This document shows, one piece after another, positions 5,357 through 21,050 of a DNA stretch of 64,000 nucleotides. Both the position numbers and the translations under genes were made by a program. The stretch spans positions 1-64,000 of the forward strand of contig CALQJI020000017.1 in the NCBI GenBank assembly GCA_943330855.2, given 5' to 3'. Source of the stretch: Klebsiella pneumoniae (GTDB lineage Bacteria > Verrucomicrobiota > Verrucomicrobiia > Limisphaerales > SXTU01). How positions within the stretch are numbered: position 1 is the first letter of the stretch; the number at the start of each line of letters is the position of its first letter. The notes under the pieces are model-generated. The model made no database searches. It was not told the origin of the DNA and was given only the letters and a program-made list of their open reading frames with translations.

Positions 5357-6457
5357 TTACTTCTTCTTGTCGTCCGCTTTCTTGGCCTTCTTCTTGGCGT
5401 CTTCCTTCTTGTCCTCTTTCTTCTCGTCGGCCTTGGGCGCGTCGGGCTTCTTCTCGTCCTTCTTGGGGGCGTCGGCTGCCTTCTTCGCGTCTTCGGCTTT
5501 CTTGTCCGCCTCCGCTTTGGCAGCGGTCGCAGCAGCGAAAGCTTTCAGGTCCGCGCCATTATCAATGCGGGCAGCGGGAACGGCTTTCTTCAACTCGGCC
5601 ACCCCGGCGTCCGTGACCTTCGACTCGAAGAGATAAACGTTCTGAAGCTTCTTCAGTCCGGCGAGCTGCTTGAGGCCGACGTCCGTGACCTGGGTGCCGA
5701 CGAGGTTGAGGTATTCGAGGTTCGCGAGAGTCTTCAGCCCGGCGAGGCTGGAGTCCTTCACGGTGGCGTTGGCGAGGTTGAGGCGGCGGAGGTTGGTGAG
5801 CTTGCCGAGCTTGGCGAGGTCGGCGTCGGTGAGTTCCACGCCGGCCGCGTTGAGCTCAAGCAAGTTGCTCACGTCCTTGATTTGGTCCCAGACCTTCGCG
5901 TCGAACTTCTTTCCAACGACGCGGAGGTTGATGTAGCGCCAGTTGCTGCCCTGTGCGATTTCGCGGGCGGTGATGCCGGCCTTGGCGAGTTCGGCGACGG
6001 CCTTGGTCTCAGCAGCGGTGGCCTTGGGGGCAGGCGGCAGTTCATCTGCTTTCTTCCCGGCCGCCGCAGCTCCGGTGGCGGTGAGCTTCAAGCCAGACGG
6101 CCACTCCGCGCCGGCGTCGATCCACGCCTTGATGAGGTCGGTGGTGGCTTTGGAGAGCGCCTCGCCCTTGGGCGGCATGATGTCGTCGTGGCCCTTGGCG
6201 AGGGTGATGACCTTGTAAACGCGGCTGTCGGCGGACTTGCCGGGAACGATGCCCGCGAGGCCGCTGTCGCCGCCCTTGAAGGCGGTGTCCTTACTGTCGA
6301 GGCGGAGCTTACCCTTCTGCTTCTCGGGCCCGTGGCATTCGATGCAGTTCTTGGCGAAGACGGGACCGATGTCCTTGGCGAAGTCGGGTTTGGTGGCGGC
6401 GAAGGAAGTCGCGGCGCTTAGAGCGGCGATGGCAAACAGTGGCGTGGTTAGTTTCAT
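5357..6457 (-). CDS. Secreted c-type cytochrome (PSCyt1-like) with leucine-rich repeats
   Basis: The protein (366 residues) has an N-terminal signal peptide (MKLTTPLFAIAALSAATSFA), then a single-haem domain with CIECH at residues 38-42 followed by GPEKQKGKLRLDS, the pattern of the planctomycete/verrucomicrobial cytochrome c domain. From about residue 165 there are leucine-rich repeats (LRRLNLANATVKDSSLAGL, LEYLNLVGTQVTD and similar). The last 60 residues are extremely rich in Lys, Asp and Ala. The combination is common in Planctomycetes and Verrucomicrobia, usually as exported proteins of unknown role. Electron transfer or surface binding is inference. A strong terminator follows. Confidence 0.85.
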   Translation of the reverse strand: MKLTTPLFAIAALSAATSFAATKPDFAKDIGPVFAKNCIECHGPEKQKGKLRLDSKDTAFKGGDSGLAGIVPGKSADSRVYKVITLAKGHDDIMPPKGEALSKATTDLIKAWIDAGAEWPSGLKLTATGAAAAGKKADELPPAPKATAAETKAVAELAKAGITAREIAQGSNWRYINLRVVGKKFDAKVWDQIKDVSNLLELNAAGVELTDADLAKLGKLTNLRRLNLANATVKDSSLAGLKTLANLEYLNLVGTQVTDVGLKQLAGLKKLQNVYLFESKVTDAGVAELKKAVPAARIDNGADLKAFAAATAAKAEADKKAEDAKKAADAPKKDEKKPDAPKADEKKEDKKEDAKKKAKKADDKKK

Positions 6458-11799: not shown

Positions 11800-11882
11800 G
11801 TAGCCGGAGGCTTCAGCCTGCGCTTCGATTTCGGCCAGACCACCACAACGCAAGGGATTTACAACTTGAAGTTTGCGACTAC
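11800..11882. repeat. GTAGCCGGAGGCTTCAGCCTGCG repeat that carries the porin stop codon
   Basis: The left end has a small palindrome (GAGGCTTCAGCCTGCG) after GTAGCC; the right end is TTTGCGACTAC. On the minus strand that right end reads GTAGTCGCA, and its TAG is the stop codon of the porin gene. The longer copy at 15185-15309 ends the same way and supplies the uvrB stop. Confidence 0.65.
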
Positions 11883-14332
11883 GGTTTCTCCGGCCACTTC
11901 AGCGACAGCGTGCCGAGAAGGCTGTGCGCGGTGTAGTCGTAGGCGCTCCCGCCCGTCGGCTCGGTGTAACGGTGGAAACCGTATTGCAGGTTCATCGTCG
12001 CCCCGCGTTTCAGCCGCGTGGTGAGGCCCGCCTGCAAACTGTGCTGGTCGTATTCCAAGCCCGCCGGCAACCCGCCCACGAAGTTGTTCTGCGCGTAATC
12101 CGCCTGCGACCACGCGTGGCTAAGACGCAAGTCCGTGTCCGGCGTCCACGCAAACGTCGCGCCGCCCTGCGCGCTCACGATGCCGCCGCGCCACGGCACC
12201 ACGGATGCCACGCCGTTCTGTGCGCTGGTCGCCTGGCTGTCCGTGTAGCTCGCGCTCGCGTTGAGCGTCCAGCGGCGGAAGGGCGTGAGCGTGTGGCCCA
12301 TGCTGAAGGTGTGCGCGTCGTGGTTGGCCGAGGCGACTGCGCCGCCGGGTGTGAAGCCGCGCAACGCATCCGTCGCCGTCACGTAGTCGGTGGCGGTGAG
12401 CCGGTAGCCGAACTGCATCTTCCACCAGTTCGCCGCCCGCCACGAAAGCCGCGCGTCCACCTCGTCACCGCGACTCGCGCGTTGCCGCAGGAAGCCCGGA
12501 TACGGTCCGCCGCCGGGCACGATGACGTATTCCAAGTTCGCGTAGTCCGTGCGCGTCTCGCGGTGTTTGTAGCTGGCGGAGACCGTCGCGCCCAACCACG
12601 GCGACGTGTGAAATCCCGCGCGCAGTTCCCGCAAGTCCGCGTCCGCGTCCGTGCGCCGGAGAAACGCCTCGGCCCCGCCCACCTGTTGCTCGAAGGTGCC
12701 GCGCCCCTCTTGTTGGAAGCGTCCATCTGCGAACACCACCGTGTGCGGCAGCCCCGTGCAGCGCAGCCCGAACTGCTCCGTCAGCGTGTGCGTGTCGAGC
12801 TGCGAGTTCAGCATGATGGGCGTCGGGAAGAGGAAGGGAATGGCGGGATTACCTACCTGCAAGTTCTCGTCGCCGAGACCGGTCTGGCGCGTCCATTCGC
12901 TTTGCACGGCGGCGGAGAAGGAAAGGTTCGCCCACGGTCCGGCCAGCGCCGCCACGCTGAACAAGTGCGACTCGCGGTCGAGCAGGATTTGGTTCGCAAA
13001 CCACTGCTCGCCGAACGCGCCACCGCCGGCAGCGGTCACCGTGTTCATCTGAAAGCCCGCGTCGCCCTCCATCCGAGAATAGAGATGGCCAGCCGAGCCG
13101 AAGAGCCAGTCGGTCAACTGGCGCTCCAGCCCCAGCGCGTTCTGCCCCTGCCAGTGGCTCGCCTGCTCGCGCACCAGCACGAAGGACGACGGCGTGGTGG
13201 TGCCGCCGAACGCGCTGCCGGGCGACGCCTGTTCCTTCCGCGTGCTGAGGTCGTAGAACTCCACGCGGGCGCTGTCCTCAATGCGCGTGCCGCGCCAGGC
13301 GTGCTCAAGATCGAGCTTCAGGATGTGTGTCTGCTCGTCCACAAAGCGCAGTGCCGGGTAAATATTCTTCACCACGCCGCCTTGGGTGGAGTCGCCCCAG
13401 TGCAGCGTGGACTGCGCGCCGTCGCGGAACTGAAATTCGTAGCCCAGCGTCACGCGCGGCCAGTCGGGCAAAATCAGTCCCACATCGAACGCAGCGCGTC
13501 CGCCGTCCATGAACAGCTCGCGGCCCAGCCGGAAAATCGGCGTGGCGAACGGCGCGTAAGTGCCGCCGGTATCGTCGTAGTTGCGTCGCCATTGCTCGAA
13601 CTCAGCACGGATGAAACCCACATCGCGGCGGTCGAGCGAGAGCTTCACCGCGTAGGCCTCGTCGCGGGGTAAGGCTCGGCCCGACAGCGAGAACCGCGTT
13701 TCCGGGTCGAGTTGCTGCTCAAAGGAGAAGTTCGCCGCGCCCCCCGAGACGCCGGGCCGCAGCCCCGTGTGCTCGCGGAACTTCGCCTCGTTGCCGCTGA
13801 CGGAGACGAAGCGAATCGTGGGCGCGACGGAGAACTCAATCTTCGGCTGGCGGCTGGTCGCGGCGGCGTCCCACTTCACGCCCTGGTCAATCCACGCGCG
13901 GAGTTTGCCGACTTGCTCGGCGGTGAGCGGCTCGCCCTTGCCCGGCGGCGGCATCTGCTTCTCCGGGTCCACCCGCGCGACTAGGTGGATGAGCCGGCTC
14001 TCCGCGCTGCGCCCCGGCAGGATGACCACGCCGTCCTCACTGCCCCGCAACGCGGCGGCGCGGCTGTCGAGGCGGAAGCGGCCCTTGGGATTCACCGCGC
14101 CGTGGCAGCGGAGACAGGAGGCTTCGAGGATGGGTTGGATGTCGCGCGCGAAGTCAATCGGGGCGGAGGAGGGGGGCGGGAGTTGGCTGGCGTCAACCGC
14201 ACTGCAACTCAGCACGGAGGCGAGCCAGCAACCAAGCACGAAGCGTCTGCGGACGTGGGCGTCCGCGCTCCAAAGGCTCGGCAGCTGACCGCTGACCGCT
14301 GACGGCTGACGGCTGTTCGCTGACCACTTCAT
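11879..14332 (-). CDS. MtrB/PioB-like outer-membrane barrel with N-terminal monohaem domain
   Basis: The product (about 817 residues) has a haem c domain of PSCyt1 type near residues 55-150 (DIQPILEASCLRCHG, then NPKGRFRLDSR and MPPPGKGEPLT), followed by some 650 residues of alternating amphipathic strands ending in LLGTLSLKWPEKP, as in decahaem-associated porins. It would form an outer-membrane pore housing the cytochrome encoded just upstream. Its ATG overlaps that gene's stop (TAATG), implying translational coupling. The first 27 residues are encoded by two repeats (14249-14275 and 14285-14326), and the hydrophobic export segment (RRRFVLGCWLASVLSC) only begins after them, so the true start is uncertain. 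The TAG stop lies in another repeat. Confidence 0.8.
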   Translation of the reverse strand: MKWSANSRQPSAVSGQLPSLWSADAHVRRRFVLGCWLASVLSCSAVDASQLPPPSSAPIDFARDIQPILEASCLRCHGAVNPKGRFRLDSRAAALRGSEDGVVILPGRSAESRLIHLVARVDPEKQMPPPGKGEPLTAEQVGKLRAWIDQGVKWDAAATSRQPKIEFSVAPTIRFVSVSGNEAKFREHTGLRPGVSGGAANFSFEQQLDPETRFSLSGRALPRDEAYAVKLSLDRRDVGFIRAEFEQWRRNYDDTGGTYAPFATPIFRLGRELFMDGGRAAFDVGLILPDWPRVTLGYEFQFRDGAQSTLHWGDSTQGGVVKNIYPALRFVDEQTHILKLDLEHAWRGTRIEDSARVEFYDLSTRKEQASPGSAFGGTTTPSSFVLVREQASHWQGQNALGLERQLTDWLFGSAGHLYSRMEGDAGFQMNTVTAAGGGAFGEQWFANQILLDRESHLFSVAALAGPWANLSFSAAVQSEWTRQTGLGDENLQVGNPAIPFLFPTPIMLNSQLDTHTLTEQFGLRCTGLPHTVVFADGRFQQEGRGTFEQQVGGAEAFLRRTDADADLRELRAGFHTSPWLGATVSASYKHRETRTDYANLEYVIVPGGGPYPGFLRQRASRGDEVDARLSWRAANWWKMQFGYRLTATDYVTATDALRGFTPGGAVASANHDAHTFSMGHTLTPFRRWTLNASASYTDSQATSAQNGVASVVPWRGGIVSAQGGATFAWTPDTDLRLSHAWSQADYAQNNFVGGLPAGLEYDQHSLQAGLTTRLKRGATMNLQYGFHRYTEPTGGSAYDYTAHSLLGTLSLKWPEKP
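14249..14275. repeat. Copy of the GGACGTGGGCGTCCGCGCTCC repeat inside the porin gene
   Basis: GCGGACGTGGGCGTCCGCGCTCC followed by AAAG repeats the core seen at 40-60. It codes for residues around 20-28 of the barrel protein, upstream of its hydrophobic export segment. Confidence 0.7.
14285..14326. repeat. Heptamer array in the porin N-terminus
   Basis: Six consecutive 7-base units run CTGACCG, CTGACCG, CTGACGG, CTGACGG, CTGTTCG, CTGACCA. The reverse complement (AGCGGTC-like) is the same heptamer as in tlyA at 48751-48785. It encodes the start of the porin reading frame. Confidence 0.8.
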
Positions 14333-15132
14333 TAGTATCTCAGCTTCGGGTCGATGTTCGACCCATGCACCGCCGTGTGGCAACCCGCCGACCAGCAGGT
14401 GCCGCGGCGGATGAACGCGGTGTGGGTGGTGTTGCCGAAGACGACTTCGCCGGCGGTGGTCTGCACCTGCGCGTGGCACTTGATGCAGAGGTTCACGTCG
14501 CGTTGGTGGAGCAGTTTTTGCGTGAACGAGCCGTGCGGCGTGTGGCAGGCGACGCAGCCTTCGCGCAACGCCTCGTGGCCGAAGACGTGCGGCTTGCTCT
14601 GCTCGCGATGGCAGTTGGCGCAGGTCTCGTTCAGGCGCGAAAGGGCGAGGCTGCCCTTGGGCTTGTGGATGTCGAAGCCGTGGGCGTCGTGGCACTGGGC
14701 ACAGTGGAGTTTGCCTTCGAGAACTTGGTGGTGGTGCGGCAGGCGGAACTCTGCGTGGGTTTGGATGTGGCAGGCGAAGCACGTCTCCGGCGACTTGCGC
14801 GGGTTGACGATGAATTTGTCCCGACCCTGTCCGCCGGTCTGGACGTGCTTGCTGCCCGGCCCGTGGCAGGACTCGCAGCCGGTCTGGCCCGCGAGGCGCG
14901 GGCTGTCCGACGGGAAGCGCCCGTGCGCGCTGGCGGCGAAGGCGCGGGTGTAGTTCGTGTGGCAGTCGGCGCAGGCGTGGTTGCCGACGAAGGTGGCGCC
15001 TTCGATGGCGGGCGGCGCGGACACGGTGCGCTCGACGGTGGAGCAGGAGCTGAGGGAGAGGCAGACGCAGCCGGCGATGAGGAGCGACGGGACGGCCAGC
15101 CAGCGGAGGAGTTGTTTGGCCGTCGAAGTCAC
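14332..15132 (-). CDS. Octahaem c-type cytochrome lipoprotein (DmsE/MtrA-like)
   Basis: From the GTG at 15132 the protein is about 266 residues. A lipoprotein signal ends LSLSSC, so the mature protein is probably lipid-anchored. There are seven CXXCH haem sites (CADCH, CESCH, CFACH, CAQCH, CANCH, CVACH, CIKCH) and an eighth with wider spacing, CWSAGCH (CX4CH), near the C-terminus. The spacing and the many extra histidines fit bis-His multihaem electron conduits. It is coupled to the downstream barrel gene. An ATG-less in-frame extension to 15291 is entirely repeat sequence (15185-15309 overlaps it) and is unlikely to be translated. An electron-transfer role is well supported; the electron acceptor is not known. 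Confidence 0.88.
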   Translation of the reverse strand: MTSTAKQLLRWLAVPSLLIAGCVCLSLSSCSTVERTVSAPPAIEGATFVGNHACADCHTNYTRAFAASAHGRFPSDSPRLAGQTGCESCHGPGSKHVQTGGQGRDKFIVNPRKSPETCFACHIQTHAEFRLPHHHQVLEGKLHCAQCHDAHGFDIHKPKGSLALSRLNETCANCHREQSKPHVFGHEALREGCVACHTPHGSFTQKLLHQRDVNLCIKCHAQVQTTAGEVVFGNTTHTAFIRRGTCWSAGCHTAVHGSNIDPKLRY

Positions 15133-15184: not shown

Positions 15185-15309
15185 GTAGTCGCAGGCTTTA
15201 GCCTGCGCTTCGCTCTGTAGCGGCGGTCTGTGACCGCCACAGTTCCCCAACTCGGCGCAAACAGAGCGCCGCTAGAGGTTTTGATTCGCAACCTAAAGGT
15301 TGCGACTAC
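15185..15309. repeat. Composite palindrome carrying the uvrB stop codon
   Basis: GTAGTCGCA (15185-15193) and its inverse TGCGACTAC (15301-15309) bound three small hairpins: GCAGGCTTTAGCCTGC, GGCGGTCTGTGACCGCC and GCAACCTAAAGGTTGC. The TAG in the terminal repeat is the stop codon of the minus-strand uvrB (ends 15306). The element fills the region between uvrB and the start of the cytochrome gene. Confidence 0.8.
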
Positions 15310-18389: not shown

Positions 18390-21050
18390 ATGTCTGTCAC
18401 CGCTGCAAACCGCGACCGGGTCCGAGTGGACGGAAAATTCTTCCGCCTCGGAGAACAGAAGTTTTACGCGAAGGGCGTGACCTACGGACCTTTCGCGCCG
18501 GGCGAGGATAAATCCCACTTTCCACCGCGCGCGCAGTTGGAGCGCGACCTCCTGCAAATCCGCGCGCTGGGAGCCAACACACTGCGAGTCTACACCGTGC
18601 CTCCGCGCTGGCTGTTGGACCTCGCGCACACGCATGGGCTCAAGCTGCTCGTGGATGTGCCGTGGTGGAAGAATGGCTGCTTCCTCGACAGCGCCGAGAC
18701 CCGCGCCAACGCGCGCAAGGCCGTGCATGACGCCGTCGCCGCCTGCGCGCATCACCCGGCCATCTTCGCCTTCAGCGTGGTGAACGAAATCCCGCCCGAC
18801 CTCGTGCGCTGGAGCGGCGCGGACAAGGTCGCGGACTTCATTGACGAACTGGTCACGGTCGCGAAGGAAGTGGACCCCGAGTGCCTCTGCACGTTTGCAA
18901 ACTTCCCACCTACGGAGTTTCTCCAGCCGCGCAACCTCGATTTCTTCACCTTCAACGTCTATCTCCACCACCCCAAGCCCTTCGACAACTACCTCGCCCG
19001 GCTTCAGATGATCGCGGACACGAAGCCGCTGCTGCTGGGTGAATTCGGCGCGGACTCCGGCCGCGAGGGCGAAACAGCGAAGAGCGAGATGCTCGGTTGG
19101 CAACTTGAAACCGCCTTCAACGGCGGCGTGGCGGGCGCGTTCGTCTTCAGCTTCACGGACGACTGGTGGAAGGACGGGCATCCCGTGCTGGATTGGCACT
19201 TCGGCGTGGTCACGCGCGAACGCGAGCCGAAGACATCCTTCGCCGCCGTCCAAGCGGCCTTCCAAATCGCGCCACACTTCGCGCTGCCGCGTTACCCGAA
19301 AGTCAGCGTCGTGGTCGCGAGTTACAACGGCGGCAAGACGCTGCCCGCGTGCCTCACCTCCCTGGAGCAACTCAACTATCCCAACTACGAAGTCATCCTC
19401 GTGGACGACGGCTCGACAGATGACACGGCGCAGATCGCCGAACGGTATCGGATGGAATTCGATGACCGCAGGCCAAGCACGGCAGAAGTCAGAAGCCAAG
19501 AGGCAGGAAGCAAGCGCGCGGAATCCGACCTCTCACCTCTCACCTCTCACCTCTCACCTCCCCCGCCTCCCCGGATGCGGATCATCCGCCAGATTAACTT
19601 CGGCCTCTCCGTCGCACGTAACACCGGCATCGCCGCCGCGACCGGCGAGATCGTTGCGTTCACCGACTCCGACTGCCGCGCGGACGAAGACTGGCTGCAT
19701 TACCTCGTCGGCGATTTGTTGCGGAGCGATTTCACGGGCATCGGCGGTCATAATTTCCTGCCCCCCGAGGACGGTTGGATTCCCACCGCTGTCATGGCGT
19801 CGCCCGGTGGCCCAGCGCACGTGATGCTCACGGATCGTCTGGCCGAGCACATTCCCGGCTGCAACATGGCGTTCTACAAGTGGGCGCTCGACGAAATTAA
19901 CGGTTTCGACTCGATTTATCGCAAAGCCGGTGACGACGTGGACGTCTGCTGGCGGCTCCAACAACGCGGATACAGGATAGGCTTCAGTCCATCCGGCTTC
20001 GTCTGGCACTACCGCCGCGCGACCGTGCAGGCATACCTGAAACAGCAGCGCGGCTACGGCGAGGCCGAGGCATTACTCGTGCGCAAGCACCCGGAATACT
20101 TCAACGACATCGGCAGCAGCATCTGGCGCGGGCGCATCTACACGGCGGCGAAAATTGGCGTCGTGACGCGCGCGCCCATCATCTACCACGGCGTCTTCGG
20201 CAGCGCGTTCTTCCAGTCCATCTACGCCCCGTCGCCCTCGATTTTCCTGATGCTGATGACGAGCCTGGAATGGCACGTGCTGGTCACGCTGCCCCTGTTG
20301 ACACTGGGCATCGCCTTTGCGGGTGTGAAATTCCCACTCCTCCTCCCGCTCGGCATCGCGAGCGCGCTGGCCTCCCTCGCGCTCTGCATAATCGCCGGAT
20401 TGCAGTCGGAGATTCCGCGCGCCAAGCGCGTCCGCATGTCACGTCCGCTGGTGGCGCTGCTTTTTTTCCTGCAACCCATCTGGCGGGGCTGGGCGCGCTA
20501 CTCCGAGCGTCTCCTGCTCCGGCAGACGCCGCTCTCCGCGCACGAGACGCTGGACACACTCAACCTCAAACGCAGCCGCGACCGTTTCGAGATGGCTGGT
20601 TACTGGGCGGACCAGCCCGTGGACAGAATGGAATTCCTCGGGGCAATCCTTCGCCAACTGGATCAGCAAGGCTGGCAGAACAAAGCCGACCACGGGTGGA
20701 GCGAATTCGACGTGGAAATCTACGGGAGCCGCTGGTGTCGCCTGCGACTCATCACCGCCACCGAGCATCACCAAGGCGGCAAGCAGCTCGTCTGCTGCCG
20801 CATGACAACCGGTTGGAGCCTGCTGGGCCGGATGACCTTCTGGGCCGCCTTCGGCCTCGTGTTGATGATTTCCACCACGGCCGGGATGCTCTTCGAATGG
20901 CTGCATTGCGCCTGGCTGCTGCCCCTGTGGCTGGGCTGGTTGCTGCAAACGCAGCAACGTGATTTCCGGCGAATCCTCACCGTGCTACTCGACGAAGTCG
21001 CAACGCAGTTCAGCCTGACGAAGGTGGACAAAAAGCCCGCAGCGAAGTGA
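18390..21050 (+). CDS. Glycoside hydrolase-like / GT2 glycosyltransferase fusion, membrane bound
   Basis: The 886-residue protein has three parts. Residues 1-295 resemble clan GH-A glycosidases or transglycosidases, with the acid/base context FSVVNEIPP and the nucleophile context LLLGEFGAD. Residues 300-590 are a GT2 glycosyltransferase (VSVVVASYNGG, VDDGSTDD, DXD-like TDSDCRAD and QQRGYGE). Two hydrophobic blocks follow (about 610-680 and 810-850). It could make and remodel a polysaccharide at the membrane. A segment of about 27 residues in the GT2 domain, between the DDGSTDD block and the RQINFGLSVARNTG block, is encoded by a heptamer element (19484-19563). Confidence 0.82.
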   Translation: MSVTAANRDRVRVDGKFFRLGEQKFYAKGVTYGPFAPGEDKSHFPPRAQLERDLLQIRALGANTLRVYTVPPRWLLDLAHTHGLKLLVDVPWWKNGCFLDSAETRANARKAVHDAVAACAHHPAIFAFSVVNEIPPDLVRWSGADKVADFIDELVTVAKEVDPECLCTFANFPPTEFLQPRNLDFFTFNVYLHHPKPFDNYLARLQMIADTKPLLLGEFGADSGREGETAKSEMLGWQLETAFNGGVAGAFVFSFTDDWWKDGHPVLDWHFGVVTREREPKTSFAAVQAAFQIAPHFALPRYPKVSVVVASYNGGKTLPACLTSLEQLNYPNYEVILVDDGSTDDTAQIAERYRMEFDDRRPSTAEVRSQEAGSKRAESDLSPLTSHLSPPPPPRMRIIRQINFGLSVARNTGIAAATGEIVAFTDSDCRADEDWLHYLVGDLLRSDFTGIGGHNFLPPEDGWIPTAVMASPGGPAHVMLTDRLAEHIPGCNMAFYKWALDEINGFDSIYRKAGDDVDVCWRLQQRGYRIGFSPSGFVWHYRRATVQAYLKQQRGYGEAEALLVRKHPEYFNDIGSSIWRGRIYTAAKIGVVTRAPIIYHGVFGSAFFQSIYAPSPSIFLMLMTSLEWHVLVTLPLLTLGIAFAGVKFPLLLPLGIASALASLALCIIAGLQSEIPRAKRVRMSRPLVALLFFLQPIWRGWARYSERLLLRQTPLSAHETLDTLNLKRSRDRFEMAGYWADQPVDRMEFLGAILRQLDQQGWQNKADHGWSEFDVEIYGSRWCRLRLITATEHHQGGKQLVCCRMTTGWSLLGRMTFWAAFGLVLMISTTAGMLFEWLHCAWLLPLWLGWLLQTQQRDFRRILTVLLDEVATQFSLTKVDKKPAAK
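19484..19563. repeat. Heptamer element inserted in the glycosyltransferase gene
   Basis: The left side has five degenerate 7-base units (AGAAGTC, AGAAGCC, AAGAGGC, AGGAAGC, AAGCGCG; 19484-19518). The right side is four CCTCTCA units and CCTCCCC (19529-19563). Unlike valS, the two sides are only weakly complementary. The insert is in frame and codes for a Ser/Pro-rich loop. Confidence 0.8.

Follow-up and report, generated by a model that had tools for sequence, protein, structure and literature searches.

The window analyzed here, a stretch of 64,000 nucleotides from contig CALQJI020000017.1 (assembly GCA_943330855.2, positions 1 to 64,000), is deposited as Klebsiella pneumoniae and placed by GTDB in the Verrucomicrobiota (Limisphaerales, SXTU01). 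It harbors two overlapping genes, one encoding an MtrA-like octahaem lipoprotein and the other a protein in which a monohaem PSCyt1 domain precedes an MtrB-type β-barrel. On the basis of sequence conservation and structure models, the two gene products probably form an MtrAB/MtoAB-type electron conduit across the outer membrane, with a shuttle haem tethered to the pore. Sister versions of the module apparently have a separate small electron-carrier protein in place of this extra pore haem. The pairing of an octahaem cytochrome with a porin is already known in Verrucomicrobia, as such pairs were published by He et al. 2017 (PMC5615132); the pairing, as picked out in a preceding sequence-only reading, is therefore not new for the phylum. 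However, the fusion of an MtrB-type barrel to a monohaem domain is a variant with a hybrid MtrAB–Cyc2 architecture that appears undescribed in the literature searched. One gene pair joins the two designs, is kept across an order, and often occurs beside an unfused sister module, providing a natural contrast for what decides the partners and the direction of outer-membrane electron conduits.

An MtrB-type barrel with a fused haem domain

The barrel was modelled by AlphaFold2 from an 80-row alignment. A barrel of more than 20 strands had been set beforehand as a test of the conduit reading, and 26 strands are modelled (Table 1). In a VIA search with the barrel model, MtrB (6r2q_B) is the top match, with a Z score of 22.1 and a root-mean-square deviation of 4.1 over 582/649 residues, and FhuA is next with a Z score of 17.9. 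Foldseek also returns MtrB as the top solved match (E 1.1e-13).

The N-terminal haem domain scores 56.1 bits with PSCyt1 (PF07635; Pfam gathering cut-off 22 bits) and has the expected CXXCH motif. Conservation was assessed in the best 80 of 166 loci found with peptide patterns, 30 of which carry the domain on the barrel, so that its recognition as a fused PSCyt1-type domain in the sequence-only reading is borne out. C73, C76, H77, G78, M127, P128, P129, and W147 are invariant in 30/30 fused rows, and the haem is probably His/Met ligated. The barrel protein had been described as beginning with CLRCH; the motif is present, yet it is preceded by a signal sequence and further residues, ~72 in all. 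In the AlphaFold2 model, the helices of the haem domain lie at residues 61–159, with few residues between them and the barrel. A plasmid search with P0002 gave partial matches only, at the haem-domain end.

PSCyt1 is found at 90 places in the genome, and the copy on the barrel shares up to 53% identity with the domains found in large PSCyt1 proteins. One of the 90 places lies in the window itself, at 5357–6457, where PSCyt1 is joined to leucine-rich repeats.

The octahaem lipoprotein

The partner protein harbors seven CXXCH motifs and one CX4CH motif. In alignment A2, which comprises 82 rows (the window protein, the second copy of the same genome, and the 80 loci), all eight are unchanged in every row, which argues that they are not chance motifs. 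The seven CXXCH motifs, CWSAGCH, the LSSC lipobox, and the TAATG overlap of the initial reading all stand in translation; octahaem stop TAA and barrel-gene ATG share one base (14332). A competing lipobox-like motif at residue 22, IAGC, is not kept among relatives. Eight histidines outside the motifs are also kept, H70, H96, H135, H186, H200, H237, and H256 in 82/82 rows and H151 in 81/82; with exactly eight conserved, there would be enough to give every haem a second histidine ligand, and the pattern fits bis-His ligation throughout the protein. L035 (contains X) and L087 (short barrel) were left out of alignment A1.

The relationship to MtrA emerges from several searches. The decahaem models NF041028 and TIGR03508 are matched by 82/82 aligned octahaem proteins at 1e-10, and the window protein resembles the DmsE/MtrA and GSU2203 decahaem models below the NCBIfam cut-offs. 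A sequence search of the PDB retrieves MtrA (6r2q_A, E 3.7e-24); the chain is labelled “Cystathionine beta-synthase” in that search, while the Foldseek label for the entry is “Structure of the Mtr complex”. TIGR03508 is matched in two pieces, 1–53 and 113–257, with model positions 54–112 missing. This split match and the HMMER alignment to MtrA indicate an MtrA-like protein from which a central stretch of ~60 residues with two haems is absent. The MtrAB/PioAB-like assignment made from the letters of the window is thus supported for both genes.

It is very improbable that the two proteins form no conduit, with the lipoprotein acting in the periplasm (e.g., as a reductase or an electron store) beside a barrel that is an ordinary transporter. 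Although FhuA-type barrels reach the Z score given above and the two chains were modelled singly, the Z score of MtrB is well above those of the other barrels, each of the two proteins resembles a subunit of the Mtr complex 6r2q, and a large open reading frame (ORF) follows the octahaem gene in 80/80 loci.

Table 1. Positions of the two genes and their sites in the window
Feature	Position	Strand	Basis
Octahaem MtrA-like lipoprotein gene, 266 aa, GTG start at 15132	14332..15132	-	translation, homology
Lipobox LSSC, Cys30 the predicted lipidation site	15043..15054	-	Cys in 80/80 covering rows
Haem site 1, CADCH	14959..14973	-	invariant 82/82
Haem site 2, CESCH	14863..14877	-	invariant 82/82
Haem site 3, CFACH	14767..14781	-	invariant 82/82
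Haem site 4, CAQCH	14689..14703	-	invariant 82/82
Haem site 5, CANCH	14608..14622	-	invariant 82/82
Haem site 6, CVACH	14542..14556	-	invariant 82/82
Haem site 7, CIKCH	14473..14487	-	invariant 82/82
Haem site 8, CWSAGCH (CX4CH)	14377..14397	-	spacing invariant 82/82; aligns with last CXXCH of MtrA (6r2q_A)
TAATG overlap of the two genes (translational coupling)	14330..14334	-	sequence
PSCyt1–MtrB-type fused barrel gene, 817 aa	11879..14332	-	translation, Pfam, model
PSCyt1 monohaem domain	13940..14116	-	PF07635, E 5.8e-15
CLRCH haem site of PSCyt1, residues 73–77	14102..14116	-	C, C, H, G in 30/30 fused rows
Met127 (MPP), probable distal haem ligand	13952..13954	-	Met in 30/30 fused rows; role inferred
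26-strand β-barrel, residues 165–813	11894..13840	-	AlphaFold2, pLDDT 88.3, pTM 0.77

The CX4CH site

The eighth haem site had been regarded as an oddity of the locus that may need a dedicated haem lyase, and neither view is supported. CX4CH is a fixed trait of the whole family, fused or unfused. Its conservation among the 80 loci is biased, because one of the search peptide patterns contains CWSAGCH; however, the site is also present in every octahaem tail read at loci from whole-protein searches, which involve no such selection. For L123 and L128, where a second check had landed on a different ORF, the tail reads CFSAGCH. CX3-4CH motifs had earlier been confirmed as covalent haem binders, according to Shi et al. 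2014 (PMC4245776), and the available part of that paper reports no atypical haem motif in the periplasmic cytochromes of the porin-cytochrome (Pcc) or Mtr systems. An MtrA-related family with a fixed CX4CH site can now be added.

A dedicated lyase at the window locus was rejected, as no ResB or Cytochrom_C_asm gene lies nearby and the motif is family-wide. The genome encodes one ResB and two Cytochrom_C_asm proteins, all on contigs other than that of the window. Among the relatives, ResB is found near 15 and a CcsA-like gene near 14 unfused modules, and neither near any fused one. In the Spartobacteria-like loci L039, L041, L046, L048, and L050, ResB and CcsA-like genes lie downstream of the unfused barrel, with a monohaem cytochrome further on.

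Distribution of fused and unfused modules

The haem domain is absent from the barrel in the remaining 50/80 loci. In the octahaem-protein tree (quick maximum-likelihood, unrooted, with long rows for L086 and L088), fused and unfused proteins part by one change, either a gain or a loss, suggesting a single origin of the fusion. The genome of the window itself encodes a second module, on contig C7, with an unfused barrel of 704 aa; both forms occur together in 14 genomes (this one and 13 others). The 49 best-scoring class and order matches (L100–L148, 13 of them settled by reading frames) comprise 47 fused and 2 unfused modules, a set that leans to the fused type because best-scoring matches were taken. 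Of the 20 second- or sole-copy regions (L149–L168), 19 are unfused and L153 is unreadable. No fused module was found among 31 examined from outside the order of the window (L091–L099, L123, L128, and 20 more). The family occurs in 16/288 genomes sampled from the phylum (E 1e-20), 82/384 from the class (E 1e-40), and 130/196 from the order.

Unfused relatives also have eight haems, which led to rejection of the idea that PSCyt1 compensates for having two haems fewer than MtrA. A second alternative is that PSCyt1 lies outside the electron path, either serving in assembly or sorting or remaining from a shuffling of domains between the PSCyt1 proteins of the genome. Its many occurrences there and its likeness to large PSCyt1 proteins rather than to the neighboring monohaem gene (see below) are in keeping with this view. 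It is nevertheless unlikely, given that the haem and ligand residues are invariant even in distant fused rows and that the fusion is kept in nearly all of the best-matching class and order modules.

The closest named relatives of the window module are verrucomicrobial metagenome-assembled genomes (MAGs). Relatives L086, L055, and L038 come from MAGs labelled Deltaproteobacteria, Omnitrophota, and Acidobacteria, reflecting either binning errors or lateral transfer. Akkermansia muciniphila is the label, possibly a wrong one, on the MAGs of several close relatives. At L185:1182-3741, the barrel gene of a fused module is broken across several frames, possibly a pseudogene or an assembly error.

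Gene neighbourhoods

The two forms differ in what lies beside them. A gene for a class-I monohaem cytochrome is found within 150 nt past the barrel in 31/46 testable unfused loci, whereas it is found in 0/24 fused ones (values for the two modules of the window genome were set by inspection). Fisher's test gives p 1.2e-8, a value that is not independent evidence, because a single tree split provides just one independent pair. An origin of PSCyt1 by fusion of this neighboring gene is not supported. The gene of the C7 sister module matches PF13442/PF00034 and not PSCyt1, and the barrel domain resembles other PSCyt1 proteins, making convergent replacement likelier than fusion of the monohaem gene.

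A cluster of 6-haem proteins (~500 aa), of which the one member scanned belongs to the NapC/NirT family, is encoded near 18/50 unfused and no fused loci. In the C7 module (L149:10397-17059), the unfused pair is followed by a monohaem cytochrome, a pentahaem cytochrome, a DsrO-like Fe-S protein, a DsrP/NrfD-like membrane protein with a cyclic nucleotide monophosphate (cNMP)-binding domain, and a VIT1-family protein. This layout parallels mtoA-mtoB-mtoD-imoA, in which MtoD is encoded beside MtoAB and ImoA (PMC11511738).

The fused modules examined have no such company. No other ORF with at least two CXXCH motifs, and thus no neighboring outer-surface multihaem cytochrome gene, occurs in the window; none with at least four lies near the 30 fused loci, and NapC-like or other multihaem neighbors were seen at 0/20 further fused loci. 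The adjacent extracellular cytochromes envisaged from the sequence were found beside neither the window module nor any fused relative examined.

A secreted plastocyanin-type copper protein with His-Cys-His-Met ligands is encoded near 7/30 and 10/20 fused loci, i.e., 17/50. Among the ten matches in the latter set, two are partial and apparently frameshifted, and one is on the opposite strand. The gene was found near 0/50 unfused loci and 0/20 unfused regions, the latter covering only ~1 kb of upstream sequence each except for C7. The genome of the window encodes three plastocyanin-type proteins, none beside the module, and two COX1-type oxidases.

In one fused clade (L027–L029 and L031–L037, 10 loci, several with marine sample names), a large subtilase gene ends shortly before the octahaem gene; at L027:9-5942 it encodes at least 1978 aa.

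Proposed mechanism

It is proposed that the octahaem lipoprotein runs through the 26-strand barrel with its bis-His haems lined up in a row. The His/Met haem of PSCyt1 would sit at the periplasmic mouth, beside the periplasmic end of this row, so that electrons could pass between the two. The domain is placed in the periplasm because the usual orientation of barrels puts both termini there; the termini of Cyc2 have also been argued to be periplasmic (PMC8406198). PSCyt1 would thereby be a tethered stand-in for the diffusing, MtoD-like monohaem shuttle that is encoded after unfused barrels.

His/Met haems are usually of high potential. This ligation, the frequent type-1 copper protein, and the lack of quinone-linked partner genes suggest that the fused form works with partners of high potential, possibly with electrons flowing inward towards an oxidase. 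Adding the two COX1-type oxidases, inward flow is a reasonable guess from the gene content, for which there is a moderate preference. A specific and tentative form of this proposal is a high-potential uptake conduit, in which an extracellular reductant would feed the octahaem wire in the MtrB-type barrel, then the tethered PSCyt1, high-potential carriers such as the plastocyanin-type copper protein of many relatives, and finally a haem-copper oxidase. If so, the fused module would be specialized away from the quinone-linked, unfused sister conduit of the same cell, and the uptake conduit would extend to relatives from open-ocean metagenomes.

It is also possible, though doubtful, that the same conduit exports electrons as a low-potential outlet to humics or Fe(III), with PSCyt1 as an extra entry haem. 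Extracellular electron transfer (EET) to humic substances was proposed for the verrucomicrobial pairs by He et al. 2017 (PMC5615132), and the unfused sister module of this genome sits with NrfD/DsrP-like and Fe-S subunits. In contrast, the fused version has neither NapC-like nor multihaem neighbors, its PSCyt1 haem looks His/Met ligated, and copper proteins accompany about a third of the fused loci.

Several observations weigh against the tethered-shuttle conduit as a whole. The barrel scores 17.1 bits with MtrB_PioB (PF11854), below the gathering score of 23, and the octahaem protein 140.6 bits with TIGR03508, below the 192.2-bit cut-off of this decahaem MtrA-family model. The octahaem protein is modelled poorly (pLDDT 64.5); among solved structures, this model comes closest to NrfB in VIA (Z 5.5), ahead of MtrA (Z 4.7). 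Because fused and unfused modules part only once in the tree, the monohaem gene would have been replaced a single time, not repeatedly. No copper gene lies beside the window module or its nearest relatives, L011–L013. Moreover, with 90 PSCyt1 places in the genome, capture of the domain might be unrelated to electron shuttling.

Relation to known conduits

The module shares with MtrAB, MtoAB, and PioAB a 26-strand MtrB-like barrel, an MtrA-related multihaem partner, and adjacent genes; as in MtoAB and PioAB, there is no adjacent outer cytochrome. It differs from all three in having eight haems instead of ten, a last site of the CX4CH type, a lipoprotein, a PSCyt1-fused barrel, and scores below the family cut-offs. 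Cyc2 likewise joins an outer-membrane barrel to a monohaem domain at its N-terminus; however, it has 16 strands and a single haem (PMC8406198), as opposed to 26 strands and an octahaem partner gene here. With the Geobacter OmaB-OmbB-OmcB system (Pcc), the module has in common an octahaem periplasmic cytochrome and a porin, but no gene for an outer-surface multihaem protein lies beside the fused form. MtoD is a class-I monohaem periplasmic shuttle encoded with its conduit and is matched by the separate gene of unfused relatives. The window module lacks such a gene and bears its haem domain on the barrel instead; this domain is of the PSCyt1 type and apparently His/Met ligated, in contrast to the bis-His ligated MtoD (PMC11511738).

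The clusters of He et al. 2017 (PMC5615132) likewise comprise, in the same phylum, an octahaem periplasmic cytochrome beside a porin of at least 20 predicted strands, for which EET was proposed. Conduits homologous to those of Shewanella and Geobacter were said to be absent there, whereas MtrA homology and an MtrB fold are found here. The available part of that text has no haem domain on the porin, no CX4CH motif, and no two versions per genome. Cyc2 was called unique in its fusion of cytochrome and porin by Keffer et al. 2021, MtrAB-type systems keeping the two apart (PMC8406198), and Shi et al. 2014 list one predicted porin-like 10-haem protein, GM18_3465 (PMC4245776). In the literature searched, outside which most subscription journals lie, no account of a haem domain on an MtrB-type barrel was found, and no such fusion is described in the available parts of PMC5566968, PMC6344600, PMC11475568, and PMC6295460.

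Flanking sequence and other genes of the window

The neighbors of the module are uvrB on one flank and, on the opposite flank, genes for an AhpC/TSA-family redoxin and an acetyl-CoA carboxylase subunit. A repeat resembling repetitive extragenic palindromic (REP) elements, AGGCTTTAGCCTGCG (at most one mismatch), borders it on both sides at 11808–11822 and 15193–15207 (also 11873–11882 and 15300–15309). Its copies have the common end TTGCGACTAC, and the module flanks are the only two places in the window where it occurs; genome-wide it is present at 54 places versus 0 for the reversed control. Elsewhere in the window, positions 18390–21050 encode an 886-aa protein with an N-terminal glycoside-hydrolase-like domain and a glycosyltransferase family 2 domain.

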